64,000 bases of DNA from Pseudogemmatithrix spongiicola. GTDB taxonomy: Bacteria; Gemmatimonadota; Gemmatimonadetes; Gemmatimonadales; Gemmatimonadaceae. The translations under genes and the position numbers were made by a program. The notes beneath the pieces were generated by a model that was given only the letters and a program-made list of their open reading frames with translations, was not told where the DNA came from and made no database searches. This document shows positions 39,575-41,976 of this stretch, in pieces. How positions within the stretch are numbered: position 1 is the stretch's first letter; each line of letters begins with the position of its first letter. The stretch covers positions 1,178,001 through 1,242,000 of the forward strand of contig NZ_CP130613.1 of assembly GCF_030623445.1 (NCBI RefSeq), written 5' to 3'.

Positions 39575-40765
39575 ATGACGACGTGGACCGGAACGCCGCT
39601 GAGCTACCAGGGCATCGTGGCGATGACTGAGGAACAGCAGGCGATCGTCGAGACGGCGAAGGCCTTTGCCGCCGAGCACGTGCGGCCTTTCGCCGCGCAG
39701 TGGGACCGCGATGCGCACTTCGAACCGTCGCTGGTCGGCAAGCTCGGGGAGCTCGGCTTCCTCGGCATGCTGCTCCCCGAGGAGTTCGGCGGGCTCGGCC
39801 TCGACGCGAAGAGCTACCTGCTCGCGCTCGAGGAGATCGCCGCGGCTGACGCGAGCGTGGCGGTGATGATGTCGGTGCACAACTCGCTGCCGACACAGAT
39901 GTTGAACACGCACGGCACGCCCGAGCAGAAGCGGCGCTTCCTCACGCCGCTGGCCAAGGGCGAGCTGCTGGGCGCGTTTGCGCTGTCCGAGGCCGACGCC
40001 GGGTCCGACGCTTCGGCGATCCGCTGCCAGGCCGTGCGCGATGGCAATGACTGGATCGTGAACGGCTCAAAGGCCTGGATCACCAGCGGCACGCATGCCG
40101 GCGTCATCATCGCGATGATCCGCACCGATACTCCGGAAGCGCGGCGGAAGTCCAAGGGCATCTCGGCGTTCATCCTGACCCCGGACCTGCCCGGCTTCCA
40201 CGTGGGCAAGAAGGAAGACAAGATGGGCATGCGGGCGTCGCCGACGGTGACGTTGACCTTCGACAACATGCGCGTGCCCGCCGACCGCATGCTGGGCGCC
40301 GAGGGCATGGGCTTCATCTACGCGATGCAGTCGTTGGTGCACGGGAGGCTCGGCATCGCCGCGCAGGCGATCGGCATCGCGCGCGCGGCCTTCGAGGCCG
40401 CCGTGGCCTACGCCAACGAGCGCAAGCAGTTCGGCACGCCCATCGCGGAGTTCCAGGGCGTGCAGTTCAAGCTCGCCGACATGGCGACGCGGATCACCGC
40501 GGCGCGCGCGATGTTGCACGAGACCGCGACGGCGAAGGACGCGGGGGCGGAGGTCGACGCGCAGGCCTCGATGTGCAAGCTGTTCGCCTCCGAGACGGCG
40601 ATGTGGGTGACCACGCAGGCCATCCAGATCTTCGGGGGCTATGGATACGTGAAGGAGTATCCGGTGGAGAAGTATTTCCGGGATGCGAAGGTCACGGAGA
40701 TATATGAGGGGACGTCGGAAGTGCAGCGGATCGTGATTGGCAGGGCGGTGTCAGCGGGGGCGTGA
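39575..40765 (+). CDS. Short-chain acyl-CoA dehydrogenase
   Basis: 396 residues. FAD- and substrate-binding segments are GAFALSEADAGSDASAI, WIVNGSKAWITSG and RKQFGTPIAEFQGVQFKLAD. The catalytic base Glu378 is in TEIYEGTSEVQRIVIG, the position used by short- and medium-chain enzymes. It oxidises acyl-CoA (probably butyryl-CoA) to the 2-enoyl-CoA and passes electrons to ETF. No enoyl-CoA hydratase gene is found next to it, so the pathway is completed elsewhere. Confidence 0.94.
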   Translation: MTTWTGTPLSYQGIVAMTEEQQAIVETAKAFAAEHVRPFAAQWDRDAHFEPSLVGKLGELGFLGMLLPEEFGGLGLDAKSYLLALEEIAAADASVAVMMSVHNSLPTQMLNTHGTPEQKRRFLTPLAKGELLGAFALSEADAGSDASAIRCQAVRDGNDWIVNGSKAWITSGTHAGVIIAMIRTDTPEARRKSKGISAFILTPDLPGFHVGKKEDKMGMRASPTVTLTFDNMRVPADRMLGAEGMGFIYAMQSLVHGRLGIAAQAIGIARAAFEAAVAYANERKQFGTPIAEFQGVQFKLADMATRITAARAMLHETATAKDAGAEVDAQASMCKLFASETAMWVTTQAIQIFGGYGYVKEYPVEKYFRDAKVTEIYEGTSEVQRIVIGRAVSAGA

Positions 40766-40776
40766 ACGACGCAACA

Positions 40777-40895
40777 GCAGATGTGAGATGTAAGATGTGA
40801 GATGTAAGTGGGTGACCGACTCTCAGCTCTTATCTCGCCTTTGCCGTTTGCAGTGGCAGCAGTCTTACATCTCATATCTCACATCTTACATCTGC
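40777..40895. repeat. Inverted repeat built from AGATGTR heptamers
   Basis: The 32-bp left arm at 40777-40808 (GCAGATGTGAGATGTAAGAT onward) pairs with the right arm 40864-40895 with three mismatches; each arm is about four tandem heptamers of the type AGATGTG or AGATGTA. The 55-bp loop has no gene. The right arm ends 4 nt before the ATG of the dehydrogenase at 40900, where no Shine-Dalgarno is visible. It may be a miniature inverted-repeat element or an RNA hairpin acting on expression. Confidence 0.85.
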
Positions 40896-40899
40896 ATTT

Positions 40900-41976
40900 A
40901 TGAAGATTTTCGATACGATCGCGAAGCTCGGCCATGAGCAACTGGTGCTGTGCGCCGAAGAATCCGCCGGCTACCGCGGCATCATCGCCATCCACGACAC
41001 CACCCTCGGCCCCGCGCTCGGCGGCACGCGCTTCTGGAACTACGCGTCCGACGAGGAGGCGATCATCGACGCGTTGCGCCTCGCGCGCGGCATGACCTAC
41101 AAGAACGCGGTCGCCGGCCTCAACCTCGGCGGCGGCAAGTCGGTCATCATCGGCGACAACCGCACGACGAACCGCGAGATGATCTTCCGCGCCCACGGGC
41201 GCTTCGTGGAGTCGCTCGGCGGCCGCTACGTGACGGCCGAGGACGTGGGCACGAGCACCAGCGACATGGATTTCGTGCACATGGAGACGGAGTATGTCGC
41301 CGGCCTCGCCAACAAGTCGGGCGACCCGTCGCCGGTGACGGCGCGCGGCGTGTTCCGGTCCATCGAGGCCTCGGCCAAGCAGCGCTGGGGCTCGTCCTCG
41401 CTCGAGGGCAAGACGGTGCTGGTGCAGGGCCTCGGCAACGTCGGCACGTACCTGTGCCGTGAGCTGCATGCGGTGGGCGCGAAGCTCATCGTGACGGATA
41501 TCCGTCCGGAGCGCGTGAAGAAGATCGTCGAGGAGTTCGGCGCCAAGGCCGTGGAGGGCGATGCCATCTACGCCGAGAAGGCCGACATCTTCGCGCCCTG
41601 CGCGCTCGGCGCGATCATCAACGATGAGACGGTGCCGAAGCTCAAGGTCGAGATCGTCTGCGGCGGCGCGAACAACCAGCTGCTCGAGCCGGAGAAGCAC
41701 GGCGAGGCGCTGGAGAAGCGCGGCATCTTCTACACGCCGGACTTCGTGGCGAACGCCGGTGGCGTGATCAACGTGTACGGCGAAGTGGCCGGTTGGTCGC
41801 GCGAGCGCGCGCTGCGCAAGGCCGACGAGATCTACGACACGGTGCTCGGCGTCTACAAGATCGCCAAGGACCACGGCATGCTGACGTATCTCGCGGCGGA
41901 CAAGCTCGCCGAGCAGCGCATCGCGGCCGTGCACGGCATGATGCGCACCTGGCCGCAGTGGCCGCGGAAGAGCTGA
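40900..41976 (+). CDS. Leu/Val/Phe/Glu-type amino-acid dehydrogenase
   Basis: 358 residues, the size of leucine dehydrogenase. The N-terminal catalytic part has GPALGGTRFWNY, YKNAVAGLNLGGGKSVI with catalytic Lys68 and Lys80, and DVGTSTSDMDFV. The Rossmann part has VLVQGLGNVGTYL and VCGGANNQL. It deaminates a branched-chain or aromatic amino acid with NAD; leucine or valine is most likely. It is the first gene of a seven-gene unit to plsC. The translation start follows directly on the inverted repeat and has no obvious ribosome-binding site. Confidence 0.9.
   Translation: MKIFDTIAKLGHEQLVLCAEESAGYRGIIAIHDTTLGPALGGTRFWNYASDEEAIIDALRLARGMTYKNAVAGLNLGGGKSVIIGDNRTTNREMIFRAHGRFVESLGGRYVTAEDVGTSTSDMDFVHMETEYVAGLANKSGDPSPVTARGVFRSIEASAKQRWGSSSLEGKTVLVQGLGNVGTYLCRELHAVGAKLIVTDIRPERVKKIVEEFGAKAVEGDAIYAEKADIFAPCALGAIINDETVPKLKVEIVCGGANNQLLEPEKHGEALEKRGIFYTPDFVANAGGVINVYGEVAGWSRERALRKADEIYDTVLGVYKIAKDHGMLTYLAADKLAEQRIAAVHGMMRTWPQWPRKS

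Follow-up and report, generated by a model that had tools for sequence, protein, structure and literature searches.

The intergenic region in front of an amino-acid dehydrogenase gene of Pseudogemmatithrix spongiicola holds an inverted repeat that is built of heptamers and almost reaches the start codon, and the question arises whether this structure serves the expression of the gene behind it or has come there as a piece of mobile DNA. The window, i. e. the whole stretch of 64,000 nucleotides that was analysed, corresponds to positions 1178001-1242000 of the genome, which consists of a single contig of 3.26 Mb. The features of the region are the following (window coordinates; leader, arms and spacer as read from the sequence):

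39575-40765, plus strand: upstream gene, acyl-CoA-dehydrogenase-like by reading
40773-40778, plus strand: outer leader AACAGC of the left arm (family consensus AACNGC)
40777-40808, plus strand: left arm, GC followed by AGATGTG AGATGTA AGATGTG AGATGTA and AG
40809-40863, no strand: spacer of 55 nt without an ORF
40864-40895, minus strand: right arm, inverted, GC followed by AGATGTA AGATGTG AGATATG AGATGTA and AG
40900-41976, plus strand: downstream gene, Glu/Leu/Phe/Val dehydrogenase (Pfam PF02812 and PF00208)

The original prediction had described two heptamer arms forming an inverted repeat, and this structure is real: in the window, there are six matches to AGATGTRAGATGTR with at most two mismatches versus a mean of 0.29 in 100 shuffled sequences, none of which reached six. 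The arms are 32 nt each, 91% complementary and 55 nt apart, and both consist of GC, four heptamers and AG, with the single variant unit AGATATG in the right arm. A further, older degenerate array may lie in the right inner part of the spacer, as judged by eye. The repeat sits between two protein genes rather than in a 23S rRNA gene: the upstream gene stops 13 nt 5' of the first heptamer, and the right arm does end 4 nt before the ATG of the dehydrogenase gene, as had been noted. As RNA, the segment 40766-40920 is predicted to fold with -59.4 kcal/mol (z -5.13), and none of 200 shuffled sequences folded equally well. It is also correct that no Shine-Dalgarno-like match precedes the ATG at 40900, yet none was found before the five other starts that were checked in the window either, and its absence thus says little about the dehydrogenase. 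A scan for promoters and terminators at the repeat found nothing, the Rfam covariance models gave no match at E<=1 between 40500 and 41100, and no target site duplication was recognisable at this copy.

The repeat family and its S23 gene in the genus

The repeat is not unique, as a count of its copies in the genome made clear. A three-heptamer pattern with at most one mismatch has 51 matches in the whole genome, whereas the reversed control has none, and a scan of the places with pattern matches located 36 arrays. These arrays share the AGATGTR unit and are scattered over the genome, some in inverted pairs and others as lone arms, and most of them follow closely on a stop codon: 26 of the 36 have the same-strand stop codon of an ORF of at least 70 codons within 60 nt upstream, and the AACNGC leader precedes the first heptamer in 26 arrays as well. 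When the unit number was not imposed, four units were counted in 27 of the 36 arrays and five in the other nine; the 36-array scan itself and the arm-pair scan of the related genome G006 impose four units and are not evidence for the unit number. In G006, where the heptamer is AGTYGTG, a strict pattern gave 38 arrays (29 with four units, seven with three and two with five). A lenient rule gave 44 arrays (12 with four units and 27 with five), and this five-unit majority arises because the trailer AGTGAAx passes the rule. At two loci of the same genome (L237 and L238), a further AACGGC leader with GATGCGG units behind it can be seen by eye between the outer AGTYGTG arms, as if elements had been nested with the youngest outermost. 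In P. spongiicola, a gene for a Mutator-type transposase (PF00872) lies between two inverted heptamer arms (L155:1895-3130, corresponding to G000:C1:1157394-1158629); this is apparently an insertion sequence that has inserted into a hairpin copy.

Between the arms of one inverted pair, at 1159851 and 1160397 of the genome, lies just one ORF, which encodes a 23S_rRNA_IVP or S23 protein (PF05635, E 8.1e-32). Such an ORF is absent from the 55-nt spacer of the window repeat. The full element comprises:

G000:C1:1159851-1160424: S23 ORF between arms of the form AACNGC-(AGATGTR)4-AG, located between ychF and hppA
1159952-1160266: the S23 ORF (PF05635) of this element

The window repeat thus shares three features with MITEs, i. 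e. terminal inverted repeats without an ORF, dispersed copies, and a coding element with the same ends. A second, divergent S23 gene at G000:C1:1890671-1890913 (L200) is flanked by inverted repeats of 75 nt that are built differently. PF05635 matches were found in 11 of the 17 genomes of the genus, and an S23 ORF is located between ychF and hppA in 11 of the 17. Most of these loci are flanked by inverted period-7 arrays, the heptamer of which varies (AGATGTR, AGATGGG, AGTYGTG, AGACKTG, AGACGGA, AGGMTGA and AGGTGTG).

The arm heptamer of an S23 gene is usually the abundant dispersed heptamer of the same genome. When four patterns derived from S23 arms were searched in all 17 genomes, 665 of the 810 matches were in the genomes that had supplied the respective pattern (74/93, 80/89, 328/343 and 183/285 for the individual patterns). 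Exceptions to this rule are G002 with 18 matches, G013 with 44, G003 with 28 and G006 with 15; G002 and G013 have arrays in assemblies that are 71% and 81% complete, respectively, and in which S23 was not found. At the ychF-hppA site, S23 identity correlates with arm similarity (Spearman 0.66, Mantel 0/2000; 11 genomes, 55 pairs), and a correlation of 0.51 is left if G007 is omitted (45 pairs). In contrast, the host gene does not track the arms: for ychF identity, the value is -0.22 (1840/2000, 11 genomes). The nearest host, G005, is 95% identical in ychF, yet its S23 protein is only 59% identical and its arms carry another heptamer. G008 and G001, with 84-85% identity in ychF and 72-75% in S23, have AGATGKG arms.

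S23 genes and heptamer arms in other bacteria

When four AGATGTR units were searched for without mismatches, at least 118 stretches from many phyla were returned. S23 was detected in 20 of 22 genomes to which such array loci belong, in 29 of 40 genomes of one cyanobacterial order, and, when a fragment of XCC0516 served as the query against the whole class, in 61 of 369 gammaproteobacteria. To score the flanks, an array was defined by at least 15 of 21 identities at lag 7 or 8 within 250 nt, on both sides of the S23 gene. By this definition, 94 of 144 S23 genes are flanked on both sides and 50 are not, whereas none of 138 control windows located 450-700 nt away qualified; other periods gave between zero and three cases per set. 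The flanked genes are 11 of 21 in the genus (controls 0/20), 23 of 29 in the cyanobacteria (0/26), 17 of 25 in the gammaproteobacteria (0/23) and 43 of 69 in a multi-phylum set (0/69) that is not neutral because AGATGTR arrays had led to its genomes. The draws of cyanobacteria and gammaproteobacteria are neutral apart from their centre genomes. The multi-phylum set started from 70 among the S23 matches listed, one of which was dropped because of short flanks; for the same reason four of 29 gammaproteobacterial loci were dropped, and L377 was left out since it is the same gene as L280. Control windows are missing for one of the 21 genus, three of the 29 cyanobacterial and two of the 25 gammaproteobacterial loci.

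Because the windows at 450-700 nt fall mainly in coding sequence, a second control was drawn from intergenic gaps at a distance of more than 300 nt from S23. Arrays were found in nine of 23 such gaps in cyanobacteria, one of seven in gammaproteobacteria and three of 20 at the multi-phylum loci, as compared to 51 of 58, 43 of 54 and 46 of 59 S23 flanks, respectively (Fisher p 4e-13 over all). In cyanobacteria, the base rate of intergenic arrays far from S23 is high, and this control is weaker there. The two arms of a gene belong together: in the 77 genes with arrays on either side, the left arm and the reverse-complemented right arm agree at 17.4 of 20 positions, as compared to 9.7 for the direct strand and 11.1 for the arm of another gene, and the arms are inverted in 70 of the 77. 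Four S23 genes (L268, L272, L285 and L289) are bordered by arrays of period 8 rather than 7, and the unit length itself can therefore change. Three S23 elements are located inside CRISPR-Cas operons, twice in the order cas6-S23-cas4 and once as cas10-S23-cmr3 (L369, L372 and L412); such insertions may explain the 23S_rRNA_IVP genes that are listed among cas genes in PMC3936711.

Filled and empty sites could be compared for eight full-length S23 elements, and a 5-bp duplication is present in two of them, with replacement, divergence or no clear repeat in the others. On plasmid C of Trichormus variabilis, a 428-bp element lies just after a TAA stop codon in flanks that are about 98% identical to the empty site on plasmid 2 of Nostoc linckia NIES-25; its arm reads AGAATTC AGAAGTC AGAATTC AGGAGTC AG, and GTAAT is repeated on both sides. 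The plasmids pNsp_a and pNsp_c of Nostoc ATCC 53789 each provide the empty site of the other: the pNsp_a element has exactly four units plus AG and a likely TTCTA repeat, and a clear flanking repeat was not seen for the pNsp_c element. In Azospirillum lipoferum 4B, the 23S rRNA copy of AZO_p2 carries an S23 gene where the AZO_p3 copy has a 19-nt hairpin, with flanks that are 100% identical; this S23 copy (L374) has heptamer arms and lies inside the 23S rRNA gene, with the Rfam LSU match running across it. The remaining pairs are filled and empty without a clear duplication, i. e. Picosynechococcus PCC 7003 versus 7002 (cas10-S23-cmr3), Nostoc C052 versus C057, Nostoc edaphicum versus Calothrix NIES-4105 (nrdB-S23-nrdA), and Aulosira versus Calothrix brevissima. 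The empty sites lack arrays, and we can therefore conclude that the arms and the ORF come together as a unit. On plasmid 2 of Aulosira laxa (L414), an S23 element has seemingly inserted into the 3' end of an ORF and brought its own stop codon. Finally, at places where relatives have an S23 gene, pNsp_c of Nostoc ATCC 53789 and pC052_E of Nostoc C052 (L410 and L411) hold arms whose S23 gene has been lost or has decayed. Such a loss turns a full element into a MITE-like copy.

Competing explanations and a possible mechanism

With a probability of roughly 0.7, we regard the inverted repeat of the window as an S23-less, MITE-like copy of a small S23 mobile element. That a small mobile repeat had landed in the leader was one of the two possibilities put forward in the original prediction; it gains support from the 51 genomic matches against none in the reversed control, from the sites in relatives that are empty or hold a different heptamer, and from the empty sites of full-length S23 versions elsewhere. 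The other possibility was that the hairpin regulates the ribosome-binding site or stands in for it, and this found no support. The dehydrogenase gene was located in 15 relatives. The gap in front of it holds a single period-7 stretch in G001 and, weaker, in G011, G009, G015 and G004, and G007 is ambiguous. An inverted heptamer pair is present in this gap in six of the relatives (G005, G006, G008, G010, G012 and G014; 0-2 of 200 shuffles as good), and such recurrence at one site, together with the strong fold, is what one would expect if the hairpin had been selected for translational or RNA-stability control of the dehydrogenase operon. However, the unit sequence varies among these relatives: it equals the arm of the genome's own S23 gene in G008, G010 and G014, differs from it in two of the six (G005 and G006), and in G012 no S23 match was found in the genome. 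Since the same site holds differing units, it has been occupied repeatedly, or the arms have been rewritten. Moreover, G003 and G013 have overlapping genes at this site and no element, and G016 has a plain gap of 49 nt. Nor are paired arms adapted to each other in G006, where they agree at 22.25 of 28 positions as compared to 22.23 +- 0.35 for shuffled pairs (2543 of 5000 shuffles as high); this test covers 16 pairs of one genome, and some arrays are possibly one unit out of register. Taken together with the silence of Rfam and the neighbouring genes that likewise lack a Shine-Dalgarno sequence, these observations make a selected control hairpin quite improbable, even if the hairpin of the window may still be cut or affect expression.

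The arms might also be simple heptanucleotide repeats that arose and spread by polymerase slippage or recombination, with S23 elements merely tending to insert into or beside them. Of 50 intergenic gaps at a distance from S23, 13 do contain arrays, and arrays of more than four units exist. But slippage does not lead one to expect that the two inverted arms around an S23 gene resemble one another much more closely than arms taken from different genes (17.4 against 11.1), that arrays are missing at empty sites, where arms and ORF arrive jointly, or that one unit recurs at unrelated sites of a genome behind a common AACNGC leader, and we consider this explanation unlikely, though less so than the control hairpin. 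The layout of extragenic inverted hairpin doublets and a partner gene at a fixed site that is flanked by the same repeat is also that of the REPIN/RAYT system as described in PMC3116915. There, the partner is a tyrosine transposase, whereas here it is S23, and the arms here are tandem heptamers. The Y1_Tnp domain (PF01797) was found in none of the 17 genomes of the genus versus five of 14 control genomes, and a RAYT encoded in this genome is refuted by the absence of PF01797. A REPIN that is moved by a RAYT transposase is thus hardly credible.

For the small S23 element that we favour, the full version is 0.4-0.6 kb long, with one S23 four-helix-bundle ORF between inverted arms that each consist of about four 7-nt units and AG. 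The arrays, their link to S23, the co-variation of S23 and arms, the filled and empty sites and the ORF loss in some copies can be read from the sequences, and from these we infer that S23 itself may be the mover. It is tempting to speculate that the arms are recognised by S23, acting by itself or together with host enzymes, and that S23 in this way moves both full and S23-less copies in trans. Genes for S23 and four-helix-bundle proteins are common and best known from 23S rRNA, and to our knowledge S23 has no known catalytic role. Among 32 S23 sequences with 23-75% identity to the P. spongiicola protein, Q38, R41, N49, E52, G53, S72 and E75 are invariant. An AlphaFold2 model of the protein (pLDDT 96.9) best matches 2gsc and 2rld, which are relatives of S23 in the PDB. 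It also resembles the fold of Avd of the diversity-generating retroelements, with TM scores of 0.70 by query for Avd (4dwl, E 0.12) and 0.69 for the RNP of these retroelements (8ub7, E 0.74), neither E-value being significant. Sequence identity between Avd and S23 is 8-12%, and the S23 element is without a reverse transcriptase; the Avd-like fold might nevertheless hint at a nucleic-acid or reverse-transcription step. If transcribed, the arms of the window would form a duplex of roughly 32 bp between two cistrons, and this duplex would probably be cut by RNase III, by analogy with the 23S intervening sequence (IVS) of Coxiella. Given insertion and RNase III cutting, an effect on the downstream gene would thus be a side effect of the insertion.

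Relation to known repeats and rRNA insertions

In the accessible passages of PMC4990558, the IVS of Coxiella burnetii 23S rRNA is described as a selfish element of about 430 nt with an S23p ORF between terminal inverted repeats (28-bp stem) and tandem GACAGAT heptamers before the ORF; earlier proposals of IVS mobility are cited, and RNase III cutting is reported. The IVS are like the S23 elements in their S23 ORF, inverted terminal arms and heptamers, and the Azospirillum copy lies inside LSU rRNA. The IVS are known from rRNA genes, whereas the S23 elements here lie between protein genes and have many S23-less copies per genome. Those passages of PMC4990558 draw no link between IVS and dispersed heptamers. 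The portions of PMC4692102 that we had describe arrays of GGGAATC in Xanthomonas and GGGGA(C/T)T in Nostoc, mostly of four units and near stop codons, with 70 and 75 convergent inverted pairs; they offer a G-quadruplex explanation and leave the role open, and "four helix" and "23S" each have 0 mentions in them.

An XCC0516-like S23 (L393) has arms of the GGGAATC type, like the Xanthomonas repeats, and a cyanobacterial S23 (L313) has GGGGACT/GGGGATT arms, like the Nostoc repeats. AGATGTR is unlike the GGGAATC type: its units contain no G-tract by which a G-quadruplex would be recognised, yet mostly four units are kept. The heptamer arrays seen here resemble the cyanobacterial STRR repeats reportedly described by Mazel in 1990. 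According to the parts of PMC4679880 at hand, TAACTGA arrays are intergenic and patchily distributed in Beggiatoaceae, Cyanobacteria and Bacteroidetes, with no transfer mechanism evident. They are intergenic heptamer arrays like those of AGATGTR and are read there as translational signals; S23 is mentioned in none of these parts under the terms searched. In the literature searched, with subscription journals thinly covered, no title or opening of an abstract connected S23 genes with dispersed arrays of heptamers.

That arms of one kind surround S23 in many bacterial groups links several repeat families of unexplained origin. We regard it as an evenly balanced proposition that the S23/23S-rRNA-IVP proteins are the movers of very small elements across the bacteria that have no known transposase and end in tandem heptamers or octamers, that the unit changes with the protein, that S23-less copies spread by the dozen between genes, and that the heptamers of Xanthomonas and Nostoc and the 23S rRNA IVS would be branches of this family. 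So far, no origin has been available for the heptamer repeats of Xanthomonas, Nostoc and the Beggiatoaceae, and the rule of four units has been attributed to a G-quadruplex. The physical and evolutionary link between S23 and the arrays makes both questions testable, as it provides substrates for S23 and a partner gene for the repeats. At about 430 bp, with a single ORF of 120 residues and a duplication of 5 bp, such an element would rank with the smallest mobile elements that carry a gene of their own.
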